Shown here: in pieces, positions 6,588 through 29,429 of the stretch | How positions within the stretch are numbered: position 1 is the first letter of the stretch | How the letters are laid out: each line of letters begins with the position of its first letter | Virus record (IMG/VR): IMGVR_UViG_3300022539_000297 | Span: 1 to 42,314 of that record | Reading direction: 5' to 3' (one strand) | Length of the DNA stretch: 42,314 nucleotides | From: a virus | Position numbers and translations under genes: made by a program | Notes under the pieces: generated by a model | Databases searched by the model: none | Told to the model about the DNA's origin: nothing | The model's input: only the letters and a program-made list of their open reading frames with translations

Positions 6588-7856
6588 ATGCCAACAGTAA
6601 ATAAAGGTGAAAATAAAAATGATTATATGGCAAGATGTGTGCCTATTGTGATTAAGGAAGGCAATACATCCGAACAGGCAGTAGGGAAATGTAACGGCAT
6701 GTGGGAACAGGCACAGAAGTTACAAATAGACCAAGTAGAGATTAAAGGTGTTGAAATTGCTTATCCCGGAAAGTTTAGTGCGAAAACAGGGAAAGTAATA
6801 TTGACAAAAAAAGATTTAGATGAAATGGTAAAACATTTTGAGGCTGGTTTATATCCACCGTATTTAAATATAGACCATGATGATAAATTAACTAATAAAG
6901 TAAAAGAAAAACATAATGTTTTGAGATTAGGAACAATTTCAAAACTTTACAAAACAGGTGAAAGGCTTATAGCCGATTTTAAAGAAGTACCCAAACAGAT
7001 TGCGGAGTTTATTAACAAAGGTTTAATGAGCCTTCGGTCAATTGAATTTTCATTGAAACATCCGGGAGCTAATGGCGAATTTTATCGGAACGTTTTGAAA
7101 GGGGTCAGTTTTTTTGGAACTGGCGTACCGGCAATTCCAAGTCTGGCGGATATACCTGTTTTATATAAATCAAACGAGCAACAAGATGTGGTTATGTATT
7201 TAGAAAAACAAAGTAAGGAGGTAGTTAAAATGGCTACTATTGACATTGAAAAATCTGAATATGAAGAGCTTTTAAAAAGCAAAGTTCAGGTTGAAAAATT
7301 GGAAATGGATTCTATTTCTAAGGATGAAGCCAATGAATTATTGAAGACCGAGCTTGGAACTGTCAAAGAGGAGAATACTGAATTGCAAAAAGGCAAAGAT
7401 GAAGTTGAAAAAATGAAAGCAGATATAGACAAAGGCAAAGAAGTTGACTTGAAATTGAAAGCGGAAGAATATGTTGACAAGTTAATTGAAGACAAAAAAC
7501 TTTTGCCAAAATTTAAAGATGCTAAAGTCAAAGAATATATCAGGCTTGAAACTGAAAAAGATGAAGATGGCATGAAGCTTTTCAAAGAAGAATTAGAATC
7601 CAGAAATGAAGTTGTTAATTTGACACAGATAACAACTGACAAAAGTAAATTAAATCAGGATGGAAGTATCAATTTCAAAGCTCCTTCCCATGACACAATG
7701 GAGGAAGTTGAAGCTAATACTGAAAAGGATGACAAGGATGCCGATGAGGCGGTTAAAACTCAAATGAAATTGAAAGGATATTTCGGCGAAGATGGTTATA
7801 TAAAGGCGGCTGTTGAGCTTGGGATTCTTGATAAATCTGAAGGAGGTGCGGAATGA
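6588..7856 (+). CDS. Mu gpI-like prohead protease with C-terminal scaffold
   Basis: The 422-residue protein has three parts. Residues 1-44 form a small domain (KGENKNDYMARC ... AVGKCNGMWEQ) often seen at the front of phage proteases. Residues 45 to about 200 resemble the Mu-like I protein protease (FSAKTGKVILTKKDLDEMVKHF, YLNIDHDD, LRLGTISKL, SLRSIEFSL). Residues 215-422 are a charged coiled coil, typical of a scaffold. In Mu the I gene also encodes the scaffold Z from an internal start, and a strong internal start is present here at 7230. The protease would cut the scaffold and itself during head maturation. The good GAGGAGG ribosome binding site at 6577-6583 supports the start. The stop overlaps the next gene by 4 nt. 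Confidence 0.87.
   Translation: MPTVNKGENKNDYMARCVPIVIKEGNTSEQAVGKCNGMWEQAQKLQIDQVEIKGVEIAYPGKFSAKTGKVILTKKDLDEMVKHFEAGLYPPYLNIDHDDKLTNKVKEKHNVLRLGTISKLYKTGERLIADFKEVPKQIAEFINKGLMSLRSIEFSLKHPGANGEFYRNVLKGVSFFGTGVPAIPSLADIPVLYKSNEQQDVVMYLEKQSKEVVKMATIDIEKSEYEELLKSKVQVEKLEMDSISKDEANELLKTELGTVKEENTELQKGKDEVEKMKADIDKGKEVDLKLKAEEYVDKLIEDKKLLPKFKDAKVKEYIRLETEKDEDGMKLFKEELESRNEVVNLTQITTDKSKLNQDGSINFKAPSHDTMEEVEANTEKDDKDADEAVKTQMKLKGYFGEDGYIKAAVELGILDKSEGGAE
7230..7856 (+). CDS. Nested scaffold protein from internal start (Mu Z-like)
   Basis: An in-frame ATG at 7230 (residue 215 of the protease gene) is preceded by a near-perfect AAGGAGGT at 7215-7222 with 8-nt spacing. Such a site would be unneeded inside a coding frame. 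The product, 208 aa starting MATIDIEKSEYEELL, is only the Glu/Lys-rich coiled coil. In phage Mu the scaffold Z is made in the same way inside gene I, which supplies many scaffold copies per protease. I infer the same use here. Confidence 0.78.
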   Translation: MATIDIEKSEYEELLKSKVQVEKLEMDSISKDEANELLKTELGTVKEENTELQKGKDEVEKMKADIDKGKEVDLKLKAEEYVDKLIEDKKLLPKFKDAKVKEYIRLETEKDEDGMKLFKEELESRNEVVNLTQITTDKSKLNQDGSINFKAPSHDTMEEVEANTEKDDKDADEAVKTQMKLKGYFGEDGYIKAAVELGILDKSEGGAE

Positions 7857-8273: not shown

Positions 8274-9203
8274 ATGGCGATGATATATGATGAAACAATT
8301 CAAGACAATTTTTCTTTCGTAAGAAATTTTGTAACTTCGTATAAACTTGAAAATCCTGTAGCTGATTTTATAGCCCCTCCTTTTCGTGTGAAATTGGAGG
8401 CTGGAAAATATCTTGAATATACAAAAACAGTACTTCGTATATTTGATGATAAAATTTCAGGTGAAGAAGAAGCAAAGGAAATTCAGTGGGACGTTGATGA
8501 AGCAACTTATGCATGTGAAGAGTACGGCATGGGTAAGTTTGTTAGCGATAAAAAGAAAGCACAGGCGATTGCTCCTATAAGACTTGATGTTGATGCAGGG
8601 AAAATGTTAAAACAGTTTCATGCATTAGCGAGAGAATATAGGATTAATGCAATAGCGGGCAACGCTGCTATTGTTACACAGACAGCTCCAATAGCGAGCG
8701 CATGGAATGCAGCAGCAGGATTGCCAATAACTAATTTGTTAACCGCTATTGAAACAATTGCAACAGCAACAGGTAAAATGGCTAATAGTGTTGTTATTCC
8801 GTTACGGGTAGCGATTAAGATGATTCAATGCACCCAGTGGACAGACCAGTTCAAATATACTGAAGCTGGTTTTAAGAATGGACTTTGGCGAGCTATTGAC
8901 GGATTGAAACAGCTCGGTTTGACTGCGTTGGTTACAAATGTTCAAGGTTTAAGCGAATATAAATGTACAGCTTCAGATCCAAAAGCAGAAACTTTGTGGG
9001 ATGACAATGTGCTTGTTTTTTATCGAGAGCCTGTCCCGACAACCGAAACCAGAACGTTTATGTTTAGTCCGTATGTAAAAAAAGATTTTACATATTCAAC
9101 CAGAGTACCAAGACGCCGAGGTGTATACCATGATATTTATAGTGATATAGATGAATTATTGGTAGACGCTCAATGTGCATATTTACTGACGAATTGTCTC
9201 TAA
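8274..9203 (+). CDS. Major capsid protein
   Basis: The 309-residue protein follows the decoration gene after 16 nt with a strong AAGGAGGTAAA ribosome binding site. The N-terminal IQDNFSFVRNFVTSYKLENPVADFIAPPFRV, the ATYACEEYGMGKFVSDKKK segment and the long central helix (ITNLLTAIETIATATGKMANSVVIP) are typical of HK97-fold capsid proteins of Mu-like heads. A terminator lies directly behind the gene, as often seen for the most highly expressed virion gene. I base the call on position, length and composition. Confidence 0.88.
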   Translation: MAMIYDETIQDNFSFVRNFVTSYKLENPVADFIAPPFRVKLEAGKYLEYTKTVLRIFDDKISGEEEAKEIQWDVDEATYACEEYGMGKFVSDKKKAQAIAPIRLDVDAGKMLKQFHALAREYRINAIAGNAAIVTQTAPIASAWNAAAGLPITNLLTAIETIATATGKMANSVVIPLRVAIKMIQCTQWTDQFKYTEAGFKNGLWRAIDGLKQLGLTALVTNVQGLSEYKCTASDPKAETLWDDNVLVFYREPVPTTETRTFMFSPYVKKDFTYSTRVPRRRGVYHDIYSDIDELLVDAQCAYLLTNCL

Positions 9204-9211
9204 AAAATATA

Positions 9212-9238
9212 GCGGGGTGAAACTCCCCGCATTTTTTT
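9212..9238 (+). terminator. Rho-independent terminator after the major capsid gene
   Basis: GCGGGG (9212-9217) pairs with CCCCGC (9225-9230) around a 7-nt loop and is followed by seven T (9232-9238). The next gene is on the same strand, so partial termination would raise capsid transcripts relative to neck and tail transcripts. Confidence 0.85.
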
Positions 9239-9249
9239 AAGGAGTAGTT

Positions 9250-9895: not shown

Positions 9896-10394
9896 GAAGG
9901 GAATTAACACGATAATTAAAGGCTTGAAAAAACCGATTGATAATGCTCGAACTTTTTTCCAGATATTAGGATTAAAGATTGATTCAGTTACACAATTAAC
10001 ATTTAGAGCCGAGGGTGCAAGGGCAGGACATAGGGCTTGGACACCTTTTAGCAGAGATACATTATTCACACGGGCGGGTACATGGAAAATAAGATACGGT
10101 ACTGATTTGAGAGGTCGGCCAAAAGGATCTTATATTCCAGGGAAGTTAAGGAAAGGTGTAAGGCGATATTCTTCAAGTAGTAAATTATTATTGGCAAGCG
10201 GTGGCTTCAGGCGGTCATTTGGAATTATACGGATTACTAATGATTATGTTATGTACGGTATTAAGGGATTACAAATGAGGAAATTAAAAATAGGCAGTAA
10301 ACCGGAACGGCAAGTATTGTTTGTAACCGAACAGGATAAGATTAGATGGGGTGGTGATTTTAAAAATTATTATAGAAAAGGATTAAAATTTTGA
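9867..10394 (+). CDS. Tail completion/virion morphogenesis protein (Mu gpG-like)
   Basis: The 175-residue protein shows the marks of phage virion morphogenesis proteins: F-AEGA(R)AGHRAWTPFSRDTL at about residues 47-66 and LLASGGFRRSFGI at 108-120, followed by a strand ending in YGIKG. In Mu and related phages this protein joins heads to tails. The ribosome binding site AAGGAG lies 10 nt before the ATG. The basic composition fits a neck protein that contacts DNA or the portal ring. The stop overlaps the next gene's TTG start. Confidence 0.77.
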   Translation: MPTKVVNLDRKGINTIIKGLKKPIDNARTFFQILGLKIDSVTQLTFRAEGARAGHRAWTPFSRDTLFTRAGTWKIRYGTDLRGRPKGSYIPGKLRKGVRRYSSSSKLLLASGGFRRSFGIIRITNDYVMYGIKGLQMRKLKIGSKPERQVLFVTEQDKIRWGGDFKNYYRKGLKF

Positions 10395-10834
10395 AAGATT
10401 TAATTAATAACATAGTAACAGCATTTCAAACCGCACAGACAGGTGGTACATTAAGCACTAACAAGGTTTTCAAAGGTTTGCATGATGTGCCGCAGTTAGC
10501 GGCTAATACTGAATTCCCTTACGCTATGGTTGATGACGGTGGTGAACGCACAGAACTTAATGATAGTATGGAATCGCAGACAAGGTTTTATTCCGTTATT
10601 ATTGAAATAGGGACTTATAGTTTGGAAAATGTAACGGAAGCACTTGACCAGATATTAGATATTACAACCGAACTCCAGACTACATTAGAATTGGAAGCTA
10701 ATAGATTTAAGGATGGGTTGATTTGGGGATTGACAATTACACCTTTTGGATGGGATGAAAGTGATAGTTTTTTTAGAGGTAGACAAATTATAATTGAATA
10801 TAATAAATTAGAATTTGCGAGGTTTAAATATTGA
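10391..10834 (+). CDS. Tail terminator/neck protein
   Basis: The 147-residue protein starts with TTG overlapping the previous stop (TTGA) and ends in another TTGA overlap. The alternation of helix (MKDLINNIVTAFQTA) and strands (FPYAMVDDGG, TRFYSVIIEIGTY), then a helix pair and a last strand (RQIIIEYNKL), resembles tail terminators such as lambda gpU or HK97 gp10-like proteins. The place, last in the neck group and before the tail tube, agrees, although 9 kb of carbohydrate genes now lie between. Confidence 0.62.
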   Translation: MKDLINNIVTAFQTAQTGGTLSTNKVFKGLHDVPQLAANTEFPYAMVDDGGERTELNDSMESQTRFYSVIIEIGTYSLENVTEALDQILDITTELQTTLELEANRFKDGLIWGLTITPFGWDESDSFFRGRQIIIEYNKLEFARFKY

Positions 10835-12582
10835 ACGATAAAATTTGGGTTATTAACAAAGGCACAAGTGATTATGATAAGATTGATTTGGATTTAAAGA
10901 GGCACGTAGTGTTGAAACCATTACGGCCTATACAGTTACCGAGATTAATTGCGATGAAATATATAAAGCGAAAAGACATAACGGCATGTAAAGACCCTGA
11001 GAAGTATTTGCAAGGTGAGCCGTTAAATCGATTAATTATTAGAGATGCGGGAATAGGGGACTTGTTATTGCTCGAGCCGATTTTAAGGCAGATGGCGATT
11101 AATAAAAATAAGATTACAATGTTAACCCGATTCCCCGCGGTATATGAAAATAATCCTTATATTGATAAGATTATACAGATGAATAGTAAAGCTGAAATAC
11201 CGAGCAATATAAATCCAAATAGCTGGGATACTTATGATGATTTAAGAAGCTATTCAGAAACTTGTCCTAATAGAGATAAGAAACATCGCACTGATTGTTA
11301 TAACCAAATATTTGATTTGAAAATAGATGATAAAGAGCCTCGATTATATTTTAGCAAAGATGAGAAATCTATATTAAATAAAAAAGAGGGTTATAATTAT
11401 ATCGGTGTGGCGTGTGATGGCAGTCATTTTTTTAGACGGTATTCTTATGGAGTGGAATTAATAAATGAGATTCTTAATAAAAATAAAAAAAATATAGTTG
11501 TTATTTTGGGCGATGGCTGGGAAGATGGACATGGGTATGTAAAGTATAATAAACGGGATAAAAGAGTAATTGATTTACAAGGTAAAACAACTATCAGGCA
11601 AATTATAAATATCATACGAGATTTGGATTTTCTTATTAGTATTGATACAGGATTATTGCATATTGGATTAACTTTACATGTGCCGACGCTTGGAATATTC
11701 AGTATTATAGACCCGGCATTAAGAATTAAATATTATACAGGCCAACATACGATTATATATAAAGATGATTTAAATTGTATCGGATGTGGGTCGTGGCACA
11801 TGGCTAAATGCGAATATGGGGATATAAAACAAGATCCTGATTTCATTCCGCCTTGTCTTGAAATTATTCCACATGAAATAATTGAAAAATTAGATATGCT
11901 TGAAAGAAATAATGAAAAAAGAATATTTGAGAATGAAAAAATTAACGTAAACACTATTAACGTAAACACTATACAAAGAAAATTGGTCATGCCGATTATC
12001 GTCTTGAATGAAGAGAAAAATTTACCACGTTTTATTGAACTGGTTATGAAACACGAGTCAATTGGGCGGGTGATAGCAATAGACGGTGGTAGTGATGATA
12101 GAACGATAGATATATTAAAGAAAGCAGGTGCGGAAGTCTACATGCACTATTATGATAAAAATTATCACGACATGCAGGCTCTACAACGGAATGTATCATG
12201 CAGTTTTGTCAGAGACGGTGAACGGATTATCATAATGGATATTGACGAATGCTTTAGCGATGAATTAAGTAATTATTTATCCTACCTTGCGGAGAGTGAT
12301 ATTGTTTACGGACTGTTATCAAGACGGACATTTGACTATTTTGATGATATAAATAATCCGATGAAACAAATTAAGGACTATCCGGACTATCAGCCGAGAT
12401 TTTTTATTTGGGATAAATGTTTCAAATGGGTTGGAAGTCCGCACCATGAGATTTATAATGCACCTGAACCGATTAGAATGAGGAAGGATATAATACATTT
12501 TGAAAAAGAGGGCAAGGATAGATTGGCACTTGAAAACCAGTGGGCTACAATGCAGGCAAAGTCAAGAGAGGTGTATACATGA
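10831..12582 (+). CDS. Bifunctional glycosyltransferase: GT9-like + GT2 fusion
   Basis: This 583-residue protein opens the carbohydrate cassette, with a TTG start overlapping the neck gene stop. Residues about 70-350 resemble GT9 (heptosyltransferase): RDAGIGDLLLLEPIL near 70, YIGVACDGS, then FLISIDTGLLHIGLTLHVPTLGIF near 266-289. Residues from about 385 form a GT2 domain: PIIVLNEEKNL, IAIDGGSDDRTIDILK and the metal-binding IIMDIDE near 467. Two 15-bp repeats (ATTAACGTAAACACT at 11941-11955 and 11956-11970) encode a doubled INVNT linker between them. A fusion could add two sugars in turn. Acceptor and sugars are unknown. The stop overlaps the next gene (ATGA). Confidence 0.83.
   Translation: MNDKIWVINKGTSDYDKIDLDLKRHVVLKPLRPIQLPRLIAMKYIKRKDITACKDPEKYLQGEPLNRLIIRDAGIGDLLLLEPILRQMAINKNKITMLTRFPAVYENNPYIDKIIQMNSKAEIPSNINPNSWDTYDDLRSYSETCPNRDKKHRTDCYNQIFDLKIDDKEPRLYFSKDEKSILNKKEGYNYIGVACDGSHFFRRYSYGVELINEILNKNKKNIVVILGDGWEDGHGYVKYNKRDKRVIDLQGKTTIRQIINIIRDLDFLISIDTGLLHIGLTLHVPTLGIFSIIDPALRIKYYTGQHTIIYKDDLNCIGCGSWHMAKCEYGDIKQDPDFIPPCLEIIPHEIIEKLDMLERNNEKRIFENEKINVNTINVNTIQRKLVMPIIVLNEEKNLPRFIELVMKHESIGRVIAIDGGSDDRTIDILKKAGAEVYMHYYDKNYHDMQALQRNVSCSFVRDGERIIIMDIDECFSDELSNYLSYLAESDIVYGLLSRRTFDYFDDINNPMKQIKDYPDYQPRFFIWDKCFKWVGSPHHEIYNAPEPIRMRKDIIHFEKEGKDRLALENQWATMQAKSREVYT
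11941..11970 (+). repeat. 15-bp tandem duplication in the inter-domain linker
   Basis: Two perfect copies of ATTAACGTAAACACT encode INVNT twice, exactly between the GT9 and GT2 domains. The duplication keeps the frame and probably only lengthens the linker. Confidence 0.9.
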
Positions 12583-13364
12583 ATGTAGTAATATTTAGTA
12601 AAGATAGAGCGATGCAACTTGAATTATTATTAAGAAGTATTCAAATGTTTTTTATAAATTATGAGGATTCGGACATAAGCATTATTTATACTTATTCAAA
12701 TAATGATTATAAAGCAAGTTATAAAAAATTAGTAAAGATGTATCCTGAATTTGATTTTAAATTAGAATATAATTTTAAGCAGCAATTATGTGATGTTATA
12801 TACGATGAACCTTATACGGTATTTTTTACAGACGATGCGGTATTTAAGTCAAAATTTGATATTGATGAAATTGATAAAGAATTTCATGACAATATATGTG
12901 CATTGAGTTTGATGCTGGGAAAAAATATTAATTATGCTTATGAAGAAGAAAGAGAAATAAAACAACCTCAATTTTATTATCCATATCCGCCTACGCATTT
13001 TCGTCTTGCTTGGGATTGGAAAAGTGCAGACATAGACTTTAATTATCCCATGAGTGTGATAGGATGTATCTGGCGGACAAAAGATATTAAACCGAAATTA
13101 TTAGAACTTGATTATGACAAGGCGTGGAATGTTGAAAGCGCATTGAAGAGTAGCCCAATTGACAAATCGAAGATGACCTGTTATAAAGAAAGCAAGGTAG
13201 TTCATATAGCAAATAATGTTGTCAGTCCGTGTGGGAATAAATCAGGCGGTGGTGATGTTGAAATATTAAATAAGAAGTTTTTAAATGGTGAACGAATTGT
13301 ATGGAAAAAAATAAATAATAATTCAGTGCATTTTGAATGGGAGTATAAATTTGAAAGAAAATAA
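12579..13364 (+). CDS. Putative GT-A type glycosyltransferase
   Basis: The 261-residue protein starts MNVVIFSKDRAMQLELLLRSIQ, as in GT2-like enzymes, and has FFTDDAVF, a likely metal/nucleotide-sugar motif, in the DxD position. Later segments (PPTHFRLAWDWKSADIDF, SVIGCIWRTKDI) may form the acceptor site. The ATG at 12579 overlaps the previous stop (ATGA) and is preceded by AGAGAGG, so it is preferred over the longer in-frame start at 12540. The sugar and acceptor are unknown. Confidence 0.68.
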   Translation: MNVVIFSKDRAMQLELLLRSIQMFFINYEDSDISIIYTYSNNDYKASYKKLVKMYPEFDFKLEYNFKQQLCDVIYDEPYTVFFTDDAVFKSKFDIDEIDKEFHDNICALSLMLGKNINYAYEEEREIKQPQFYYPYPPTHFRLAWDWKSADIDFNYPMSVIGCIWRTKDIKPKLLELDYDKAWNVESALKSSPIDKSKMTCYKESKVVHIANNVVSPCGNKSGGGDVEILNKKFLNGERIVWKKINNNSVHFEWEYKFERK

Positions 13365-13599
13365 GCAAAAATTTAAAAAAGAATTTGAAGAAAAATGGCA
13401 GCAATTTATACAAAGAGAAAATTTAATATATCATGTTGTTAAAATTAGATATATAAGAAAAAAAGATAATTTAGTTTTAATTAAAGTTGGTGGAATAAAT
13501 GAATATATTCAATTACATTTCGATATTATCGATGGACAAATTGAAAAATTATTAGAAGCATTTAAAAATGATGAATATGTAAAAATCAATAAGGAATAA
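13351..13599 (+). CDS. Hypothetical protein, 82 aa, in carbohydrate cassette
   Basis: I do not recognise this gene. It has a Lys/Glu-rich N-terminal helix (KFKKEFEEKWQQFIQRE) followed by strands (VVKIRYIRKKDNLVLIKVGG) and an acidic helix. The likely start is TTG at 13351, with GGGAG 7 nt upstream, overlapping the previous gene by 14 nt. It lies between a glycosyltransferase and the radical SAM enzyme and may assist one of them. Confidence 0.55.
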   Translation: MKENKQKFKKEFEEKWQQFIQRENLIYHVVKIRYIRKKDNLVLIKVGGINEYIQLHFDIIDGQIEKLLEAFKNDEYVKINKE

Positions 13600-13604
13600 A
13601 AATT

Positions 13605-14663
13605 ATGAAAGAATGGATTGATGTATTAAATCCTTTTAACTCGATTAAAATTTTGATATATCGTGAATGGCTTGAGGGATATGCAAAAGAATATTATCGG
13701 CCACCTGTTACGGTTGCGATTGATACGATTAATAATTGTAATTTAAAATGTATTTGGTGTAATGCAAAAAACGTAATAAAAAAAAAGATAAGTAAAATGA
13801 CTATTGATGAAGCGGTTAAGATTGCGAAGTTTATTGATAAATGGGGAGTGCTTGGGACTTGTATAGCAGGTGGTGGTGAGCCATTAATGAATAAACCTGC
13901 TTTTAATACTTTGCTTTTGGAATGTCACAAAAGACATATATCAAATAGTGTGATTACAAATGGCACATTATTGGATACTGAAAGTATAAAAAATATAGCG
14001 GAAACTTGTCGATGGGTTGGGATTTCAGTTGATGCGGGAAGCAAAGAAACATTCAAAAAATTGAAAGGCGTGGATATGTTTGAAAAAGTAATTGAAAATA
14101 TAATAAAAATGAGAAATAAGATTGATAAAATAGGCAGCAAGTGTGAGATAGGGTTTAAGTTTGTATTACATCCTGAAAATCAACATGAGATAGTGAGTGC
14201 AATAAAATGGGCTAAAAAATCGGGTGCGCATGATTTCCATTTACGGCCAGCAGCAAGCAGAATGAAATTAAATTATGATTTTAATTTAATTCAGGAAAAA
14301 TTTAATTTGGGATATATGTATAATGATAAAGATTTCAGAGTATACGGAATAACACATAAATTTGATAATGAATTTAAGTCCACATTTGATTTTGAGTATT
14401 GCCGAGCATGTTCTATTCATCCTGTATTTTGTGCCGACGGTACATTCCAGCTTTGCATCGATAGACGTGGTGAAGATAATTTAACTTTATGCGACTGGTA
14501 TCCCGACCCTGCAAATATTTTGAAATATTGGAATACTGATATACACAGAGAAATATTAAGAAATGTTAATTTTGATGAATGTCCCAAATGTGTATTTAGT
14601 GGATATAATAGGATAATTGAAAAGGTATTTATAGATGACCAAATGTGCAGGAGACATGTATGA
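13605..14663 (+). CDS. Radical SAM enzyme with SPASM/twitch-like C-terminal cluster domain
   Basis: The 352-residue protein has the radical SAM cluster motif C45-x3-C49-x2-C52 (NNCNLKCIWC), then GGGEPLMN (89-96) for SAM binding and VITNGTLL (117-123). The C-terminal part has a cysteine set at 266, 269, 276, 284, 296, 326 and 329 (including FCADGTFQLC and CPKC) that looks like a SPASM or twitch domain holding extra Fe-S clusters. Such enzymes modify peptides, sugars or cofactors by radical chemistry. In this setting a sugar or glycan-linked substrate is likely, but that is inference. It overlaps the next gene (ATGA). Confidence 0.85.
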   Translation: MKEWIDVLNPFNSIKILIYREWLEGYAKEYYRPPVTVAIDTINNCNLKCIWCNAKNVIKKKISKMTIDEAVKIAKFIDKWGVLGTCIAGGGEPLMNKPAFNTLLLECHKRHISNSVITNGTLLDTESIKNIAETCRWVGISVDAGSKETFKKLKGVDMFEKVIENIIKMRNKIDKIGSKCEIGFKFVLHPENQHEIVSAIKWAKKSGAHDFHLRPAASRMKLNYDFNLIQEKFNLGYMYNDKDFRVYGITHKFDNEFKSTFDFEYCRACSIHPVFCADGTFQLCIDRRGEDNLTLCDWYPDPANILKYWNTDIHREILRNVNFDECPKCVFSGYNRIIEKVFIDDQMCRRHV

Positions 14664-15172
14664 TAAAATTAATAAACGGCAGAGGTCAGCTCGGAAGTAT
14701 ACTTAAAAGAAAAATCGAGGGGTTTAGCGATATGGATTGCATTATTTATCATACATGGAATATAGATGACAAATCAGAGGTTACACAGCTAAAAGAATAT
14801 GAAAAATTTAGGGATTTTGTTAATAATAATCATAAAGAAAAAATAGTTTTTATTTCAACTGTTTGTCCCGTAATGGGAAGTTATTTAAAATATAAAATGT
14901 TATCAGAGATTTATTTGTGGGATATATGCGAACAGGGAAAAGTGATACGGTTGCCTGCTTATGTTGGCAAGGGCGGGCTGTATAAACGATGTAAAAAAAG
15001 AATTAAACCAAAATTTGGGAAAATACAATTGAGTACTTTAGACCATGTAAGTGATTTGCTTTTAAATAGTTTATTTAGTAGTAGACGATTAGAAATTATT
15101 GAAGGGGATTGTATTAGTGTTGATATTATTTATGGATTAATTCAATATGGAGTAAAAAATGACAAGAAATGA
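14660..15172 (+). CDS. Short NAD(P)-binding Rossmann protein (SDR-like)
   Basis: The 170-residue protein opens with MIKLINGRGQLGSIL, a short glycine-rich nucleotide loop (G7-R-G9-Q-L-G12), and has IVFISTV (62-68) followed by Y75-x3-K79 (YLKYK), in the order of the SDR active site. RLPAYVGKGG resembles the 'R...YGPG' segment of sugar epimerases/reductases. At 170 aa it is far shorter than usual (about 300), so substrate binding parts are reduced or missing. It might be a sugar reductase with a partner, or a degenerate paralogue. The AGGAG and ATGA overlap support the start at 14660. Confidence 0.6.
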   Translation: MIKLINGRGQLGSILKRKIEGFSDMDCIIYHTWNIDDKSEVTQLKEYEKFRDFVNNNHKEKIVFISTVCPVMGSYLKYKMLSEIYLWDICEQGKVIRLPAYVGKGGLYKRCKKRIKPKFGKIQLSTLDHVSDLLLNSLFSSRRLEIIEGDCISVDIIYGLIQYGVKNDKK

Positions 15173-15665
15173 TTTACCAAGTTTATTGACTAAACCTTAT
15201 TTTATGGCAGAAATCGGTGTTGATAGGGGAGATTTTTTTGATATTTATTATTCTAAAAAGAATGAATATTATTTAATTGATTTATGGGATTCAAATAATG
15301 ATAAATATTATTCAAAAAAACATTATAAAGAAAGTTATAAAATAATTAAAGACAAAACGAAAGAATTAGAAAATATTCATTTAATAAAAATGAGTTCTTT
15401 TAGAGCGGCTAAAAAATATCCTGATAATTGTTTTGATTGGATTTATATTGACGCTCGGCATGGTTATGAAGATGTCAAGCAGGACATAGAAGCATGGTTG
15501 CCAAAACTCAAAGCAAATGGTATTATATCGGGACATGACTATGATCCTTCACCTGAATATCAAAAAAAATATAATTTTGGTGTTAATGAAGCAGTTAAAG
15601 AAATATTTGGTGAATTTAATTTGACAGATGAAGAATATTTTAAATCTTGGTATGTGAGGTTATAA
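15159..15665 (+). CDS. Class I SAM methyltransferase (Methyltransf_24-like)
   Basis: The 168-residue protein reads as a compact Rossmann methyltransferase: MAEIGVDRGDF (motif I variant), YYLIDLWD (motif II acidic end), then FDWIYIDARHGYEDVKQDIEAWLPKLKANGIISGHDY. This last block matches small-molecule and sugar O-methyltransferases of the Methyltransf_24 group, where the Asp and His region binds metal or substrate. It overlaps the SDR-like gene by 14 nt. The likely role is O-methylation of a sugar on the cassette's product; this is inferred from context. Confidence 0.8.
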   Translation: MTRNDLPSLLTKPYFMAEIGVDRGDFFDIYYSKKNEYYLIDLWDSNNDKYYSKKHYKESYKIIKDKTKELENIHLIKMSSFRAAKKYPDNCFDWIYIDARHGYEDVKQDIEAWLPKLKANGIISGHDYDPSPEYQKKYNFGVNEAVKEIFGEFNLTDEEYFKSWYVRL

Positions 15666-16195
15666 TGGGGATATCAATACAATTACATAATGAGGTAGAA
15701 AAATATATTTTTAATGATATAAATATGATCGAACTTGGAAACCAATATTTTTATGTTAATGGAATTCAAAAAGATTTATGCAAACCGTATTTTGAGCAAA
15801 TGGGGATTAAGCATATCTCGATAGATATTAACGGAAAGGATGGTGTTTTAAAATTAAACTTATGTAATAGTATAAATTTAAAACCTGTGGATATTGTAAC
15901 TAATTTTGGGACTTCAGAGCATGTGAAAAATCAGTATATGTGTTTTAAGAATATACATGGATTTTGTAAGCTGGGTGGATTGATAATGCATGAAGTTCCT
16001 GAAGAAGGTAGTTTTCTTAAACATGGATTATATTGGTATATACATAATTTTTTTATAAATATTTATGCTAATCAAAAGATAATTGAACTTAAGAATTTAA
16101 AATATCCCGATGGTAATTTAATATTTTGTATAATAAAAAAAACAAGTGAGGAGTTTGTAAGTGAAAGTTGGTTTAATGATCATAGCAACAAATAA
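15665..16195 (+). CDS. Putative SAM-dependent methyltransferase, degenerate
   Basis: The 176-residue protein has IELGNQYF in place of the usual GxGxG loop, ISIDINGKDGVLKLNL (acidic ribose-binding end and motif III) and DIVTNFGTSEHVKNQYMCFKNIHGFCKLGGLIMHEVP, which matches the motif IV-V region of class I methyltransferases. The missing glycine loop could mean changed cofactor use. The ATG at 15665 overlaps the preceding stop (TAATG) and is preceded by GTGAGG. Confidence 0.68.
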   Translation: MGISIQLHNEVEKYIFNDINMIELGNQYFYVNGIQKDLCKPYFEQMGIKHISIDINGKDGVLKLNLCNSINLKPVDIVTNFGTSEHVKNQYMCFKNIHGFCKLGGLIMHEVPEEGSFLKHGLYWYIHNFFINIYANQKIIELKNLKYPDGNLIFCIIKKTSEEFVSESWFNDHSNK

Positions 16196-16808
16196 ATATA
16201 TTGAGTTTATGCCTGAACTTTATGAATCTTATAAGAAATATTTTTTTAAAAATCATAGTAGGAAATTATTTTTATTTACTGATAAGGAATTTAAAAATGC
16301 TGAAATTATAAAAATTGAACATGAAGCCTGGCCTAATATAACATTAAAAAGATTTGAATATATTTGTAATACCGATTTTGATATTGACTATTTATATTAT
16401 TTAGATGCCGACAGTTTAATTGTCAATAATATCGGGGAAGAAATTTTGGGCGACATGGTTGGAACATTGCATCAAGGATATGTTAATCGGGGATGGAAGC
16501 CATTCGACCAAAATCAAAATTCAACTGCCTACGTTGAAAATGGCGATTATTATACGGGCTGTTTTTGGGGTGGAAAAATTGATAAAATAAAAACAATGTC
16601 TGAAATATTAAAAAATAATATTAATAAAGATAGCGAGATAGGATATGTGGCAAGATGGCATGATGAAAGCCATCTTAATTGGTATTTTAATAAATACCCA
16701 CCCGATAAAAAATTAAGTCCATCATATAATTATAGTGATGATTTTCCAAATGATTATAAACCGATTATAAAATGTTTGAGAAAAAATGTGGAGTATTACA
16801 GAACATGA
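16161..16808 (+). CDS. GT6 family glycosyltransferase (ABO blood-group type)
   Basis: The 215-residue protein shows the GT6 marks in order: VGLMIIATNKYIEF, HEAWPNITLKRFEYI, the metal motif D82-A-D84 (YLDADS), VGTLHQGY, YYTGCFWGG (130-138), WHDESHLNWY (166-175) and LSPSYNY (185-191). These match the catalytic core of the human A/B transferases and alpha-1,3-galactosyltransferases, which move GalNAc or Gal from UDP with retention. It lacks any membrane anchor, as bacterial GT6 proteins do. The bacterial group usually has NxN instead of DxD, so the DAD here is notable. The GTG start has AGGAG 8 nt upstream and overlaps the previous gene by 35 nt. Confidence 0.88.
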   Translation: MKVGLMIIATNKYIEFMPELYESYKKYFFKNHSRKLFLFTDKEFKNAEIIKIEHEAWPNITLKRFEYICNTDFDIDYLYYLDADSLIVNNIGEEILGDMVGTLHQGYVNRGWKPFDQNQNSTAYVENGDYYTGCFWGGKIDKIKTMSEILKNNINKDSEIGYVARWHDESHLNWYFNKYPPDKKLSPSYNYSDDFPNDYKPIIKCLRKNVEYYRT

Positions 16809-17503
16809 TAACAAGTATAATTATACATTACAAACGGCCTGAGAATGTACCACTTTGGATTGAAGGAATACGAAAACAAACTATTGCAAGTAAGATAATC
16901 GTATGGGATAATTCAGGCGACTATCCAAAAGGCAGTGGTGAAGATGTGCTTATAACATCAACAGAAAATTTCTTTTGTCAACCACGTTTTCTTATTGCCG
17001 GTTTTGTGAAAACTAAATATATTTATAATCAGGATGATGACCTTGCAATTAATGACCCGGATTTATTTGAGAAATTTATTGAAGTATCTGAAAAATACCC
17101 TGCTTATGTTATAGGCTGGAATGGGAGAGTTTTTCATAAGGATATTAATTGGGAGAAGGCATATAGTTTTCCCGGTAAGGGATGGGTTGATGCGATGGAT
17201 ATTGAGGATGAAAATAGTATTGATATGATTAATGTCGGAGTATCTTTTTTTCAAACAATACTTATTAACCAGATACCGATTAATCCTTTTCAGCACATTA
17301 CTCCAATTACAGAGCAGGATTATAAATATGGAGACGATATGTGGATAAGCCATTGGTTAAGAAAAAAAAGAGTTATGCCTTTCAAATTACTCGATCATTA
17401 TGATTGGTTGAATGAATATGAAGAACGAAGTGCAGCATTAAGTAAACAGCCTGATCACATGAATCATAGGGATAAATTAGTGCGGAGGTTTTGGCATGAT
17501 TAG
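16805..17503 (+). CDS. GT-A glycosyltransferase (GT2/GT64-like)
   Basis: The 232-residue protein begins MITSIIIHYKRPENVPLWIEGI and has IVWDNSG, then YIYNQDDDLAI with an acidic metal motif, VIGWNGRVFH, INVGVSFFQ and YGDDMWISHWLRKK. The order DNSG, DDD, GxxGR, GDD is that of GT-A enzymes, and the last block recalls the ED(D)I.MN segment of exostosin-like GT64 enzymes. I favour a GT2-related call. The ATG at 16805 overlaps the GT6 stop (ATGA), so the two are translated together. Confidence 0.75.
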   Translation: MITSIIIHYKRPENVPLWIEGIRKQTIASKIIVWDNSGDYPKGSGEDVLITSTENFFCQPRFLIAGFVKTKYIYNQDDDLAINDPDLFEKFIEVSEKYPAYVIGWNGRVFHKDINWEKAYSFPGKGWVDAMDIEDENSIDMINVGVSFFQTILINQIPINPFQHITPITEQDYKYGDDMWISHWLRKKRVMPFKLLDHYDWLNEYEERSAALSKQPDHMNHRDKLVRRFWHD

Positions 17504-18185
17504 TATTATAACACCGACATATAATAGACCGGATTTTTTGAGACAAGTAGTTGATAGTTTTATGGTACAGGATTATAAAGACAAAGAAATGATTATTATT
17601 AATGACGGGGGTAGTGAGGAGCAGAATATTTATGCTATGTTGAAAGACCTATCTCAAATAAAATATTATTGGAAAGACCATGCCAATCAAGCAGTGGCGC
17701 AGAATTATGGTATTGCTAAAAGTAGGGGTGAATTGATTTGCACTTTAGATGATGACGATTTATTTTATGATAAATATTCTTTATCTCAACGTGTGGATTA
17801 TTTCAAACGAAATAAAGATGTAGAAGTTATTTGGACAAATGGGATAGACATTCATTCTGACGGCAATCCTTCAACTGAACATTATTTGAGTGATGGGAAT
17901 CAAATTTGGAATAAGGATGATATATTAATTAATTCGATGATGTGGCGGAAAAGCATTAAGACTGCAATAGGCGGATATTTTTTTGACAGAAATTTGACTT
18001 CTAATGAGGATTGGGATTTTAAAATTCGCTGCATAGCTGAATGCACATGTATGGCAGTTGATATTTTGACGGTCAAACATAGAGTACACGGAGAAATGAG
18101 AAGTAATTTACATAGACAATCGGGAGAACTTTCAAAAAATGCAGAAATTATGTTTAAGAAATTAAAGGAGAAATATAAATGTTAA
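17496..18185 (+). CDS. GT2 family glycosyltransferase
   Basis: This 229-residue enzyme is a clear GT2: ISIITPTYNRPDFLRQVVDS, MIIINDGGSEE (nucleotide binding), NYGIAKSRGELICTLDDDDLF (the DxD metal motif) and SNEDWDFKIRC (the ED catalytic base region). It has no membrane segments, so it acts in the cytoplasm on a soluble or peripheral acceptor. The start overlaps the previous gene by 8 nt, with GGAGG upstream. Confidence 0.88.
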   Translation: MISIITPTYNRPDFLRQVVDSFMVQDYKDKEMIIINDGGSEEQNIYAMLKDLSQIKYYWKDHANQAVAQNYGIAKSRGELICTLDDDDLFYDKYSLSQRVDYFKRNKDVEVIWTNGIDIHSDGNPSTEHYLSDGNQIWNKDDILINSMMWRKSIKTAIGGYFFDRNLTSNEDWDFKIRCIAECTCMAVDILTVKHRVHGEMRSNLHRQSGELSKNAEIMFKKLKEKYKC

Positions 18186-18472
18186 TAGATATTACAAGAA
18201 ACAACAGGAATATTTTGTTATTTAGAACTTATGGATTTATGAGATTTAGATTGAGAGTAATGAATAAATTTGATTTGAGTTTTAGGCAATGCTCGGGTAG
18301 TTGGTTTTATGTATATAATTTATTTCAAATAATTATTAATTGGGGTTTGGGAATAATTTTCGTAAGTATATATCCATTTAATTATGAATGTAAATTTATG
18401 TTTGGATATATGTATATAATACATAATAATAGATTTAAATTTCAAAATGAATTATTAAAGGAGAATTTATAA
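18179..18472 (+). CDS. Small membrane protein, 97 aa
   Basis: I recognise no family. The N-terminal half is basic (RNNRNILLFRTYGFMRFRLRVMNK). Residues about 43-67 (YVYNLFQIIINWGLGIIFVSIYPF) form one likely membrane segment, and the C-terminus is rich in aromatic residues. It overlaps the GT2 stop by 7 nt, with AAGGAG upstream, and ends one base before the next gene. It could anchor cassette enzymes or the glycan at the inner membrane. Confidence 0.6.
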   Translation: MLIDITRNNRNILLFRTYGFMRFRLRVMNKFDLSFRQCSGSWFYVYNLFQIIINWGLGIIFVSIYPFNYECKFMFGYMYIIHNNRFKFQNELLKENL

Positions 18473-19186
18473 ATGAAAATAGCAGTGTCAACAACCTGTT
18501 CTGATGGATATGTAGTTTTACTTGACCACTTAATCAAAAGTGTTTTAAAACATAATCCAAAATTTAATAAAGATTTTCTTATATTTTGTGATGGTAGATT
18601 AAGAAAAGAAAACAGAGATTATTTAAAAAAATTATATAAAAAATTTAAGTTTGTGGATTGCGAATGGGAGACTTACGAGAAAAATTATAAAGGAAGTATC
18701 AAGTATTACAGTATAGAATCCTTTGCACTCCCAAATTATGATAGAGTGATTTACTGGGGTAGTGATATGTTATGCATGAAATCTTTAGATGAATTATTTA
18801 AAGTTGCTGAAACTATTGGAGGGATAGCAATGCCGAAAGAACGTCGGTCAGGAATGTATAATAACGGGTCAATGATAATAGGCAAAGAATATTTAAATGT
18901 TGCTACTTACGGTAATTTGTTGGGGTTTGATATTGGTAAATTTCCCGGACATTTACAAGACCAGAAACTTTATAACTTTTTTTTTAAAGATGTGCAAGAA
19001 ATAGACTTAAAATTTAATACGCTGGTAAGTGAAACCGATTTTATTTCAAAAAATGAAATAGTGTTATTGCATTACATTTATAAACCAACTCAAGAATATG
19101 CGAGGGAGTTTATTCCCGATTGGGCAATAAAAGAATGGGAGCAATACGATAATCCTGGAGATAGGTATGCGGGAATTATTGGTTAA
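18473..19186 (+). CDS. GT8-like glycosyltransferase
   Basis: The 237-residue protein resembles LgtC/glycogenin-type GT8 enzymes: IAVSTTCSDGYVVLLDHLIKSV at the start, ALPNYDRVIYWGSDMLCMKSLDEL (85-108), NNGSMIIGKE, GHLQDQKLYN and LLHYIYKPT with the late histidine that binds metal. The DxD motif expected in the YDRVIYxDxDxL block is changed to GSDM, so only one acidic residue remains. It may be metal-weak, inactive or use another residue. The ribosome binding site AAGGAG overlaps the previous gene's end. Confidence 0.72.
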   Translation: MKIAVSTTCSDGYVVLLDHLIKSVLKHNPKFNKDFLIFCDGRLRKENRDYLKKLYKKFKFVDCEWETYEKNYKGSIKYYSIESFALPNYDRVIYWGSDMLCMKSLDELFKVAETIGGIAMPKERRSGMYNNGSMIIGKEYLNVATYGNLLGFDIGKFPGHLQDQKLYNFFFKDVQEIDLKFNTLVSETDFISKNEIVLLHYIYKPTQEYAREFIPDWAIKEWEQYDNPGDRYAGIIG

Positions 19187-19217
19187 TTTAAAATGTAAAT
19201 TTGCAGGAGGTGACAGG

Positions 19218-19844
19218 ATGGGAGATGAATTTAAGTATATTGAGAAATGGATTAAAGGTGAACACGGAAATATGAAAAAAGGTGTGGATATAGGTTGCGG
19301 TACAAATCGATTGAGCATGGAAGTGCTTGCGATTGATGCTAATCCTATGCGGAAATTTGCTCATGCGGATGTAGTACACAATTGTCATAATTTGGAAGTA
19401 GGAAAAGAAATTATTTTTAATGAGCAGGTATATAAATTCGAAGATAATGAATTAGATTTTATTTTTAGCTCTCATTGTCTTGAAGATTTCGGGGATATTC
19501 CTGTTGTATTTGAGAATTGGTGGAAAAAATTAAAGGTTAATGGATTAATGATTTTACTTTTACCTGACATGGAAATTTGTGATTGTGAAATATGTAAAAG
19601 TGGCCAGCAAAAAGAGTACAGGGAAAAACAGAAAATGTCCGCAAGATATTGGACATTAGAAGATTATAAAAAAACGAATAAAGGAAATCCGACTCATAGA
19701 ACTAATGTCGGCAAAAAGTTTATGACTGATTTGCTGCAAAATTTTAGAGAGAAGGATAAAATAGATTACGAGATATTACAAGAAGATACAGTACCACATG
19801 ACAAAGGCTGTTCGATTGATTTTGTGATTAAGAAAATAAAATAG
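19218..19844 (+). CDS. Class I SAM methyltransferase
   Basis: The 208-residue protein has GVDIGCGTNR (motif I), EVLAIDANPM (ribose-binding Asp), FEDNELDFIFSSHCLEDF (motif IV) and WWKKLKVNGLMILLLPD (motif VI). This is the Methyltransf_11 pattern found in sugar and lipid biosynthesis gene groups. The start at 19218 follows a textbook AGGAGG with 7-nt spacing; the longer frame from 19167 is rejected. It ends the carbohydrate cassette 11 nt before the tail tube gene. Confidence 0.83.
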   Translation: MGDEFKYIEKWIKGEHGNMKKGVDIGCGTNRLSMEVLAIDANPMRKFAHADVVHNCHNLEVGKEIIFNEQVYKFEDNELDFIFSSHCLEDFGDIPVVFENWWKKLKVNGLMILLLPDMEICDCEICKSGQQKEYREKQKMSARYWTLEDYKKTNKGNPTHRTNVGKKFMTDLLQNFREKDKIDYEILQEDTVPHDKGCSIDFVIKKIK

Positions 19845-19855
19845 GAGGTGAGAAT

Positions 19856-20419
19856 ATGGCTAATGTATATAATTTTCTTGGTGATGATAGGGATTTCTTT
19901 ATGAAATCAAGTTGGAAAATGTATACTGACCTTTCGGGTGCTATGCAGTATGTTGGCAAAACCGGAAATGAGAAGAATATCCACAGTGACCCTGAATATG
20001 TCGAATGGTGGGACAATACATCCGGCGTTCAGACATTATATATAACTGACCTTGATAAGATGGGATTTGCAGTTGATTTTAATTTTATGCAGGTTGCTGA
20101 CAGTAACGCATTGGCGGCTGCATTTAATACTGATTGGGACAAGAGTGATCCGAACTGGGAATACCATTTTCTTGGTTCATGTCAAAATGCACTGCGGGAA
20201 GCGACATGGGTTATGATTGGGCAAACTCGGTCGGGACTTGCAGTTGAAACATGGATACGAAAAGGTGTTGTCAAACTAAATGGTGAATGGGCTTCGGGTG
20301 CTCCCGGCGATTATACTAATATTCCGATTACTATTGCCGCTATGCAGGATACAGGTATTTCAAATTGTTTACGGGATTTAGTATATATTCGAATTGAAAA
20401 ACAAACATCGGGAAGTTAA
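19856..20419 (+). CDS. Major tail tube protein
   Basis: The 187-residue, beta-rich protein lies directly before the tail chaperone and tape measure genes, the standard place for the tube protein. Features include an N-terminal VYNFLGDDRDFFMKSS, a central GVQTLYITDLDKMGFAVDFNF sheet and a C-terminal LVYIRIEKQTSGS. The strong AGGAGGTGAGA ribosome binding site fits a highly made protein. No sheath gene is beside it, so the tail is non-contractile. The call rests on gene order and composition. Confidence 0.78.
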   Translation: MANVYNFLGDDRDFFMKSSWKMYTDLSGAMQYVGKTGNEKNIHSDPEYVEWWDNTSGVQTLYITDLDKMGFAVDFNFMQVADSNALAAAFNTDWDKSDPNWEYHFLGSCQNALREATWVMIGQTRSGLAVETWIRKGVVKLNGEWASGAPGDYTNIPITIAAMQDTGISNCLRDLVYIRIEKQTSGS

Positions 20420-20424
20420 AATAC

Positions 20425-20512: not shown

Positions 20513-20523
20513 ATGGAGTTATT

Positions 20524-21291: not shown

Positions 21292-23506
21292 TATTAAGGT
21301 AATGATTAAGGCTATACTTGCTGATAAGGATTTCAAGAAAGGCATGAAAGGCATGCAGACAAGTTTCGGAAAGACTGAAAAGAAATCAAAGAGTTTTTTT
21401 AAAACCATAAAGGCGGGTTGGTTAATAATCGGTGTTGGGGTTCTTGCCGCTGTTAAAGGATTTAAAAGTTTAATAAAAGCAGCAGGAGATGCACAGGAAG
21501 TTTTTTCAAAATTCAATACTGTTTTTAGGGATGTTAGAAAAGAAGCTGATTTGGTTGCTAAAAATCTTGCCAGAAATTTCGGATTAAGTTCAATTAAAGC
21601 AAGAGAATTATTAAGTGATACAGGCGACTTGTTGACAGGATTTGGTTTTACTCAAAAAGCATCATTAGATTTAGCCAAACAAGTAAATGAATTAGCAGTT
21701 GACTTGGCTTCATTTACAAATTTTAGTGGCGGTGCTGAAGGTGCAAGCAAAGCATTAACAAAAGCATTATTAGGAGAACGTGAATCCGTTAAATCTTTAG
21801 GAATATCTATTTTAGAAGCTGATGTTAACGCGAAGGTTCTTTTAAATACACAGAAGGGATTAATATTTGCAAGTGAACGACAAGCTAAAGCGTATGCTAC
21901 TTTAGAGATAGCACAAGAGCAGAGTAAGAATGCACAAGGCGATTTTGCAAGAACACATAAAGATTTTAATAATCAAGTAAGAATATTAAATTCTAATCTT
22001 GAAGAATGGGCTGTAAAATTAGGTTCACGAATTTTGCCGATATTTGCACCGTTTGTTACGGCATTAAATAAAGTATTACAACCTTCAAGGGATATAGAAG
22101 ATATAACAATTGATTTAATTGCAAGTCAAACAAGATATAAAGAGATTGTTGATAAATTAAGTGATAGCCAATTAGATTTAAGTAAATCTGAACGGCAGGT
22201 ATTACAAATTCGACGTGATATTATAGAGCTGGATATTCTTAAAGAAGTCAAAGCATTGACAGAAGAATATCCTAAGCAAACAGAAAAAGTAAAGGAGCTT
22301 AAAGTTACTTCTGATTTTTATAGTAAAGCATTAGATTCATTAAAAGATAAAATAGCAGATTATAAAGACGAAACTATTGAATTAACAAGAGAAGAAATAC
22401 GGCTAACAGGTGTAACTGCTGAAATGGTTAGTGGGTTTGATAGGTCAGGGAAAGGTATAGCAAAATATACGGATGTATTGAAATTTTTTAATGACACTCA
22501 AATAAAAAGTGGTGAAGCAATAAAAAAAACAGATGAAGAAAATTTAAAACTTAAAAACTCTATAACTGGAATAGCAAATGCACTTAATGATGAAATTATA
22601 TTACAATCTCAATTAATGGGATTGAATGAAGAATTATTAGAACAGATACGAGTTCGGCGTGAAGAATTATTATTAGAAGCTCAAACAAAAAAAGAAATTG
22701 TTGAAGTTGTTGAAAAAGAAATTGTAGAAACAAAAATGACAACTCAAGAAGAATGGATGGAATTTATGGGGCAACAGAAAGAACTTGAGTTGGCAAGAGA
22801 ACAGAAAAAATATGAGGAGTTGATTAAGTTTGCAACAAAGAATAATAAAGACCTTGTTAAATTAGAACAACAACATATTAAGAATATAGAAACAATTGAA
22901 AAGAAATATAGAGAAACGTCTTTGAAAGAAGATGAAAAAATGGCGGAAGCAAAACAGTTAATAGCTGGCACATTCGTATCAGGATTTCTGGGTGGGATTG
23001 AAGACATGCAGTCGGGAAGCAAAACTATATTTGCAAGCATGGTGAAACAATTTGCGGCTATGATTTCAGGTCAATTAGGAATACTGGCGGCTAAATATTG
23101 GATACAGGTATTAGGCGGGAATCTTGCATTGATCCCCGCAGCAGTAGGGGCCACTGCTGCGGCAGGGGCAGTAAAACTTGCTGGCAATGTTGCTGCTGCT
23201 GAAATAATGAGTCATCAAGAGGGAATTGAATCCGTACCTGCGACGGGGCTTGCTAATATCCATGCAGGTGAACGAGTTATATCGGCACAAATGAATGTCC
23301 CTGACGTTAGTAATGAGGACTTTGTGCAAGCTGCGATTGCGGGGCTTTCGTTACCTGCTGTTCAGGGCGGAAGTTCAAATGATGACCATAGAAATTATGA
23401 AGATAATAGAAGTTTTAGCTATAACAATGAAGTTATGGAAGGTGCAGGGATGGAGGAATTTTTAGAAATGACAGAAATGATGGATACGAGGTGGAATAGA
23501 AGATAA
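21281..23506 (+). CDS. Tail tape measure protein
   Basis: The 741-residue protein is mostly helical, with Ala-rich and hydrophobic segments (AGWLIIGVGVLAAVKGFKSLIKAAG; a C-terminal run of ALIPAAVGATAAAGAVKLAG) and long coiled coils (residues about 300-570). The segment FSKFNTVFRDVRKEADLVAKN is typical of tape measures. It sets tail length; at roughly 1.5 angstrom per residue the tail would be about 110 nm. The end (SVPATGLANIHAGERVIS) is a common tape measure ending. The start is GTG at 21281 with GAGGT upstream, inside the end of the chaperone zero frame. Confidence 0.92.
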   Translation: MATDIKVMIKAILADKDFKKGMKGMQTSFGKTEKKSKSFFKTIKAGWLIIGVGVLAAVKGFKSLIKAAGDAQEVFSKFNTVFRDVRKEADLVAKNLARNFGLSSIKARELLSDTGDLLTGFGFTQKASLDLAKQVNELAVDLASFTNFSGGAEGASKALTKALLGERESVKSLGISILEADVNAKVLLNTQKGLIFASERQAKAYATLEIAQEQSKNAQGDFARTHKDFNNQVRILNSNLEEWAVKLGSRILPIFAPFVTALNKVLQPSRDIEDITIDLIASQTRYKEIVDKLSDSQLDLSKSERQVLQIRRDIIELDILKEVKALTEEYPKQTEKVKELKVTSDFYSKALDSLKDKIADYKDETIELTREEIRLTGVTAEMVSGFDRSGKGIAKYTDVLKFFNDTQIKSGEAIKKTDEENLKLKNSITGIANALNDEIILQSQLMGLNEELLEQIRVRREELLLEAQTKKEIVEVVEKEIVETKMTTQEEWMEFMGQQKELELAREQKKYEELIKFATKNNKDLVKLEQQHIKNIETIEKKYRETSLKEDEKMAEAKQLIAGTFVSGFLGGIEDMQSGSKTIFASMVKQFAAMISGQLGILAAKYWIQVLGGNLALIPAAVGATAAAGAVKLAGNVAAAEIMSHQEGIESVPATGLANIHAGERVISAQMNVPDVSNEDFVQAAIAGLSLPAVQGGSSNDDHRNYEDNRSFSYNNEVMEGAGMEEFLEMTEMMDTRWNRR

Positions 23507-28906: not shown

Positions 28907-29044
28907 ATGGAAGAATTAATTATTAAAATTGCTGTTATTGAAACGAAAGTAAATATGCTTATGTTTATTAATAGTATATTTGCTGGCGGTGTTATAACGG
29001 TATTGATACATAAGATATTTAGAAACGGTAAAAAGAATGGATAA
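28907..29044 (+). CDS. Short holin-like membrane protein (XhlA-like), 45 aa
   Basis: A short frame with a strong AAGGAGG ribosome binding site encodes an N-terminal amphipathic helix (ELIIKIAVIETKVNML), one membrane segment (FINSIFAGGVITVLIHKIF) and a basic tail. This order resembles XhlA-type holin helpers. It overlaps the endolysin gene start by 8 nt. Role inferred: controls release or access of the endolysin, alone or with the two-segment protein at 29431. Confidence 0.6.
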   Translation: MEELIIKIAVIETKVNMLMFINSIFAGGVITVLIHKIFRNGKKNG

Positions 29045-29429
29045 AATAAATTGGAGTAATTATAAATCTTATTTTAAATGCTCTGAATTTGATTCTAAAG
29101 GTGTGGGCGAAAAAGATACCGGATTGAATATGAAAAAAGAGTTTATGGACATGCTGTATAAAGCTCGGACTTTAAGCGATGGGTTTAAGTTTATAATTGA
29201 GTCAGGTTTTAGGACTGACGCTTATAACTTGAGGGTCGGTGGTGTACCAAAATCAAGTCATAGAAAAGGATTGGCTGCGGATATAAGAGCAAGAAATAAT
29301 GAAGAAATATTTTGGATTGTTAGAAGTTTATTATTTGCAGGATTCAAAAGATTACATATAAATCATAAGCGCAAGTTTATTCATGTCGATTGTGATAAAA
29401 GTAAGAAGCAAAATACAATTTGGGATTAA
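29037..29429 (+). CDS. Endolysin, peptidase M15 (L,D/D,D-carboxypeptidase type)
   Basis: The 130-residue protein has the M15_3 motif set: FKCSEFDSKG at the start, SGFRTDAYNLRVGG, then SSHRKGLAADIRA (zinc ligands His and Asp) and FIHVDCD (third ligand His). These enzymes cleave peptide cross-bridges in peptidoglycan. No signal peptide or cell-wall binding domain is present, so export relies on holins, as expected for a compact single-domain endolysin of a diderm host. The ATG at 29037 overlaps the holin-like gene. Confidence 0.9.
   Translation: MDKINWSNYKSYFKCSEFDSKGVGEKDTGLNMKKEFMDMLYKARTLSDGFKFIIESGFRTDAYNLRVGGVPKSSHRKGLAADIRARNNEEIFWIVRSLLFAGFKRLHINHKRKFIHVDCDKSKKQNTIWD

Follow-up and report, generated by a model that had tools for sequence, protein, structure and literature searches.

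A cassette of glycosyltransferase and methyltransferase genes with a radical S-adenosylmethionine (SAM) enzyme lies among the virion genes of a metagenomic viral contig (IMG/VR IMGVR_UViG_3300022539_000297), the whole of which, 42,314 bases, was analysed and is called the window here. We favour, with modest confidence, the explanation that this cassette of about 9 kb is a cytoplasmic module which attaches a methylated glycan, altered by radical chemistry, to at least one virion protein of the phage itself. The explanation is based on gene content, gene order, overlaps, base composition, the fold predicted for g4, the radical SAM enzyme, the recurrence of such cassettes in further phages and the lack of membrane export genes; from these we infer substrate, acceptor, chemistry, timing and benefit.

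Gene content and packing of the cassette

The cassette consists of 13 intact, co-directional frames on the + strand, which span 10831-19844 (g1 to g13, Table 1). An earlier sequence-only reading of this DNA had described 13 frames between 10834 and 19856, tied to each other and to the upstream gene by overlaps, and both statements hold: the run is uninterrupted, a TTG/TGA overlap at 10831-10834 joins g1 to the upstream gene, and overlaps of the ATGA type occur inside the cassette. Neighbouring genes overlap or abut at 12 of the 14 junctions from 10391 to 19856, where the largest gap is 11 bp, as compared to 19 of 47 junctions elsewhere (Fisher p = 0.005), and no strong terminator was found within the cassette. 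Because its G+C content (28.7%) is lower than that of the virion genes (36.0%, p = 2e-4), the cassette fits a gain as one block.

Concerning the glycosyltransferases, about six had been proposed, and Pfam families match five genes, a GT9+GT2 fusion and members of GT6, GT64/GT2, GT2 and GT8. No other GT9-GT2 fusion was found in the phages searched. The sixth, the putative GT-A enzyme g2, has neither a family match nor a match among solved structures. Since in two other phages (L010, L022) the radical SAM gene is directly preceded on its 5' side by a homologue of g2 (30-33% identity), g2 belongs to the module. Two of the three proposed methyltransferases, g6 and g13, are firm, whereas g7 gives a weak match below the cut-off and is devoid of the glycine-rich motif I. 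The protein g5, previously called SDR-like (short-chain dehydrogenase/reductase), carries the motifs GxxGxxG and YxxxK in the same order as the SDRs neighbouring related radical SAM genes; yet, in a scored set of 1,794 sequences made up of g5 and its shuffles, it comes only 47th, which is not significant. Families and overlaps thus agree with a glycan-making and methylating set packed inside the late block, as had been suggested.

The low G+C content also speaks for a mixed or decaying block, whose genes were gathered piecemeal and, several of them nonfunctional, are tolerated in the late operon. Short or degenerate members are indeed present, namely g5 with its 170 amino acids (aa), g7 without motif I and g12 without a DxD motif. 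Against this stand the 13 intact and closely packed frames and the retention of every Fe-S cysteine in g4, and we regard decay as quite improbable.

The radical SAM enzyme g4

The assignment of g4 to the radical SAM enzymes is confirmed, but its SPASM label is to be replaced by a Twitch type with one four-cysteine cluster site. The residues C45/C49/C52 (CX3CX2C) and C266/C284/C326/C329 are invariant in 12 aligned sequences, with a C-terminal spacing of 18/42/3 in the window, which predicts, by sequence, a radical SAM/Twitch enzyme with a single auxiliary site. SPASM domains are defined by a seven-cysteine motif that includes CX2CX5CX3C (PMC6231123); this motif is missing from g4, and just four C-terminal cysteines are invariant in the 12 sequences.

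An AlphaFold2 (AF2) model of g4 reaches a predicted local distance difference test score (pLDDT) of 88. Foldseek retrieves DesII as the best match (template modelling score, TM, 0.70-0.71), with BlsE among the others (TM 0.68/0.72). Against both enzymes the model aligns with TM 0.68-0.71 over 334-390 alignment columns, the shared fold extending beyond the SAM barrel. A sequence profile of g4 also finds DesII (E 1e-10) and BlsE (E 8e-8). DesII, of the thymidine diphosphate (TDP)-desosamine pathway, deaminates or dehydrogenates a TDP-sugar (PMC11434129), and BlsE, of blasticidin S synthesis, decarboxylates cytosylglucuronate (PMC3715490), so that the substrates of these enzymes are a sugar-nucleotide or a sugar-nucleoside. 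Their identity to g4 is just 13-16%, and no membership by sequence is claimed; unlike g4, BlsE has a proposed second-cluster motif CxCxxC (PMC3715490). The Twitch dehydrogenases of the BtrN type resemble g4 in having four conserved cysteines at one auxiliary cluster site (PMC9012708, PMC6231123), but BtrN is barely detected from g4 by sequence (E 0.11).

Maturases of ribosomally synthesized and post-translationally modified peptides (RiPPs) and MoaA match g4 too, as expected for a large superfamily. A sugar-modifying role of g4 is for this reason favoured, not proven. The sequence-only reading had assumed a radically modified oligosaccharide. A radical enzyme is present, but given its DesII/BlsE-like predicted fold it more probably alters a sugar or its nucleotide donor than the assembled oligosaccharide. 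We considered g4 and g5 as a radical SAM and reductase pair resembling AprD4/AprD3 (PMC5461906); this pairing is an unconfirmed candidate.

In the favoured explanation, the cassette would have been acquired as a block and would be made together with the virion genes. The enzyme g4, possibly with its neighbour g5, would alter host nucleotide sugars by radical dehydrogenation, deamination or deoxygenation of a nucleoside diphosphate (NDP)-sugar, by analogy with DesII and BlsE. One glycosyltransferase would then start the chain on a virion protein, the remaining ones would extend it, and g6 and g13, perhaps also g7, would methylate the glycan. The likely benefit would be a changed particle surface affecting shielding, stability or adsorption.

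Acceptor of the glycan and recurrence in other phages

Most of what is known of glycosylation in phage virions comes from mycobacteriophages, in which it protects the particles from antibodies. For the enzymes of cluster O phages, capsid and tail tube are the reported targets (PMC11600133), and capsid glycosylation is described as requiring gp110 in Che8 and gp38 in Corndog (PMC12363180); the results of Freeman 2023 are cited after PMC11600133, PMC12363180 and PMC11256854. The gene order in Mycobacterium phage Firecracker, a relative of Corndog, is portal, O-methyltransferase, gp34, GalNAc-transferase-like, glycosyltransferase, protease and capsid. As in Corndogvirus (cluster O), e.g. Firecracker gp33-gp36, glycosyltransferase genes in the window lie inside the head or tail block, and they are accompanied by the methyltransferases g6 and g13, whose family matches do not imply which atom is methylated. 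Firecracker differs from the window in having four genes without a radical SAM enzyme, in its glycosyltransferase families and in their location between portal and capsid protease. By analogy with this arrangement, a virion-protein target of the cassette gains support.

The sequence-only reading had left the choice between virion proteins and the cell surface. Proteins with at least three membrane segments were found in none of 15 cassettes (the window and 152 genes of 14 relatives), while E. coli Wzy and Wzx gave 6 and 9 segments in the control. The window cassette contains no polytopic flippase, polymerase or membrane glycosyltransferase of the Wzx/Wzy or Gtr kind, and no initiating sugar-phosphate transferase (PF02397) was found in the 14 relatives. 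Because polytopic membrane proteins and an initiating transferase are missing, a cytoplasmic acceptor, e.g. a virion protein, is favoured over an exported surface glycan, and the cell surface becomes the less likely of the two targets.

The cassette might instead change a host surface glycan (lipopolysaccharide, capsule or S-layer glycan) during infection with the help of the host's flippase and polymerase, serving superinfection exclusion or a receptor change. GT8, GT9 and GT2 are frequent in envelope polysaccharide synthesis, close g4 homologues occur in bacterial and archaeal genomes, and in pelagimyophages glycosyltransferase and radical SAM genes of a host recognition cluster were interpreted as surface-glycan modification (PMC7029224). 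Besides the missing membrane proteins and initiating transferase, the position of the cassette among late virion genes, and not as an early or lysogeny set, argues against such a function, which we consider unlikely.

Hypermodification of the phage DNA with glycosylated and methylated bases, as a protection against host nucleases, is far less probable still. Viral glycosyltransferases are able to glycosylate DNA (PMC12619734), and in the faecal phage MT835491 radical SAM and GT-A genes are clustered with a ParB-like gene in a hypermodification-like manner; its g4 homologue, however, is distant and aligned across 38% of g4 only. The number of glycosyltransferases and methyltransferases in the window exceeds what known DNA-modification systems are generally understood to use. 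Modification of DNA is unlikely since ParB-like, hydroxymethyl-pyrimidine or thymidylate synthase-like genes were not matched by Pfam/PHROGs among the window proteins scanned, a set that leaves out many short genes.

A profile scan with g4 yielded 80 viral loci, named here by L-numbers; the closest viral relatives are 32-45% identical to g4 over most of their length. An SDR gene is located beside the radical SAM gene, or within one gene of it, in the viral loci L009-L012 and L022 and in the Omnitrophota contig L089. In the podovirus ctQWt234 (MW202801), a cassette at 19640-24303 sits between the major capsid and an SU10-type adaptor, in the order capsid, small gene, radical SAM, glycosyltransferase, PhyH, methyltransferase, NodB-like, glycosyltransferase and adaptor. 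Like the window, this phage carries radical SAM, glycosyltransferase and methyltransferase genes beside head genes; it differs in its capsid type and its PhyH and NodB-like genes. Since its radical SAM enzyme falls into a separate deep clade of the tree, the sequences suggest that the cassette of ctQWt234 was assembled independently of that in the window, a suggestion only, as the tree branches of both enzymes are long.

Further loci show the cassette after portal and capsid (phrog_1357) in L013, and between portal (phrog_64) and capsid (phrog_29, assigned through the corresponding gene of the near-identical relative L009) in L012. Putative head genes precede it in L011 and L014, with a tail-terminator gene following in L011, and in L015-L018 it lies upstream of the terminase. 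Radical SAM cassettes thus recur next to capsid or portal genes of different capsid families in several phages. This is a recurrence and no general law, because the L020 cassette lies amid exonuclease, helicase and polymerase genes and the radical SAM family is not enriched near the large terminase (9 of 21 contigs within 10 kb, 8.2 expected).

These last two observations weigh against a virion target, and others add to them. Adjacency to the head block was scored after the loci had been seen. No detectable homology links the window glycosyltransferases to the Firecracker enzymes (best E 0.016, gp34/g9). No close relative of the window genome was found that could speak for conservation of the exact arrangement, and host enzymes could supply the export.

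Some related cassettes carry genes of their own. L014 encodes NeuB (8739-9671), and L011 encodes a B12-binding radical SAM enzyme and an HpcH/HpaI aldolase (11771-13769) as well as a 2-hydroxyacid dehydrogenase. These genes suggest that related cassettes make unusual sugars, of nonulosonic type or C-branched. In the faecal phage locus L005 (12326-14903), ParB-like, GT-A-like and radical SAM genes adjoin the terminase and resemble a DNA hypermodification cluster. The contig L020 shares 11,922 of 12,068 31-mers with a contig of a Methanoregulaceae metagenome-assembled genome (L098); judged by these common 31-mers, a methanogen may be the host of the virus that bears this set of radical SAM and glycosyltransferase genes. 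The glycan cluster of cyanophage P-SSM2 resembles the window in a GT6 39% identical to g8 and in its glycosyltransferase-rich run, but belongs to a large myovirus with nucleotide-sugar enzymes of its own and, in the stretch read, adjoins high-light and photosynthesis genes, not capsid genes.

More tentatively, and short of an even chance in our estimation, several unrelated phages may have independently built head-linked cassettes whose radical SAM enzyme, in many cases together with an SDR, makes an unusual virion-attached sugar, deoxygenated, dehydrogenated or deaminated, so that they would represent a radical-chemistry class of virion glycosylation. No description of such a class was found in the literature searched.

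Flanking genes and implications

The head block fills the left half of the window, and by Pfam and PHROGs the upstream flank is firmly virion (Table 1). A Mu-type portal and a Mu F-like head morphogenesis domain share a single frame there. The hairpin directly 3' of the major head protein gene may raise capsid protein output above that of the neck, cassette and tail genes which follow it. Four small genes lie between hairpin and cassette, the last of which, earlier named a neck gene, is weakly tail-terminator-like. The tail tube label given to the gene at 19856 could not be upheld, as it matches no Pfam or PHROGs family and its single-sequence AF2 model is unusable (pLDDT 38). Only the beta-helix, lectin-like and endolysin genes identify the 3' flank as virion.

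Single-sequence scans of viral contigs with the proteins of 19856, GT6 and radical SAM gave no relatives, the same scan with the terminase gave just one 6 kb fragment (22%), and a tblastn search of phages with the major head protein gave no match. Outside the virion genes, positions 3-188 encode the C-terminus of what is probably a DNA methyltransferase (GSGSTLIAA...NRKYYGFE); the record is incomplete at its left end, since this gene is cut by the contig end. The product of 31000-31509, 169 aa long, contains part of a GmrSD_N (DUF262-type) domain (E 2e-13) and is perhaps a truncated or counter-defence form. In the early region, 37836-38534 encodes a DUF5131 protein that weakly matches radical SAM enzymes.

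Table 1. Features of the window, in order of position
Feature	Position	Strand	Basis
Portal (Mu type) fused to Mu F-like head morphogenesis protein	3913..6237	+	Portal_Mu 8e-41, Phage_Mu_F 2e-16
Head maturation protease	6588..7856	+	phrog_976 E 1e-25
Major head protein	8274..9203	+	phrog_1005 E 5e-27
Strong terminator-like hairpin	9212..9230	+	6 G-C pairs then T run
Putative tail terminator (neck region)	10391..10834	+	PF23818 E 0.01, weak; phrog_5185 E 0.006
g1 GT9-GT2 fusion glycosyltransferase	10831..12582	+	PF01075 2e-9, PF00535 7e-6
g2 putative GT-A glycosyltransferase	12579..13364	+	no Pfam match
g3, 88 aa	13333..13599	+	no family match
g4 radical SAM enzyme, Twitch type, DesII/BlsE-like predicted fold	13605..14663	+	PF04055 5e-23
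g5 putative short SDR-like protein, 170 aa	14660..15172	+	motif order
g6 methyltransferase	15159..15665	+	PF13578 (Methyltransf_24) 5e-16
g7 possible methyltransferase	15665..16195	+	PF13489 E 0.0017, below cut-off
g8 GT6 glycosyltransferase	16161..16808	+	PF03414 6e-32, phrog_3317 3e-49
g9 GT64/GT2-like glycosyltransferase, start 16805	16805..17503	+	PF09258 3.5e-8
g10 GT2 glycosyltransferase	17496..18185	+	PF00535 2e-23
g11, 97 aa, one possible membrane segment	18179..18472	+	no family; hydropathy 1.68
g12 GT8 glycosyltransferase	18473..19186	+	PF01501 2e-12
g13 methyltransferase	19167..19844	+	PF13489 1e-6, PF08241 5e-6, motif DIGCG
Gene earlier labelled tail tube	19856..20419	+	no family match; AF2 pLDDT 38
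Beta-helix protein, probable tail fibre or spike	23506..26655	+	PF13229 6e-16
Concanavalin/laminin-G-like (lectin-like) protein	26655..28472	+	PF13385 E 0.0026
Endolysin (M15 peptidase)	29037..29429	+	phrog_894 3e-22, PF08291 7e-14

By analogy, the cassette is probably a larger variant, with radical sugar chemistry, of known virion-glycosylation gene sets. Its gene order yields a search rule, namely a radical SAM gene or a glycosyltransferase run adjoining capsid, portal or neck genes. If the favoured explanation were true for uncultured phages elsewhere, such cassettes would be a source of sugar-modifying radical enzymes, and glycosylated virions would be commoner and chemically more varied than assumed.

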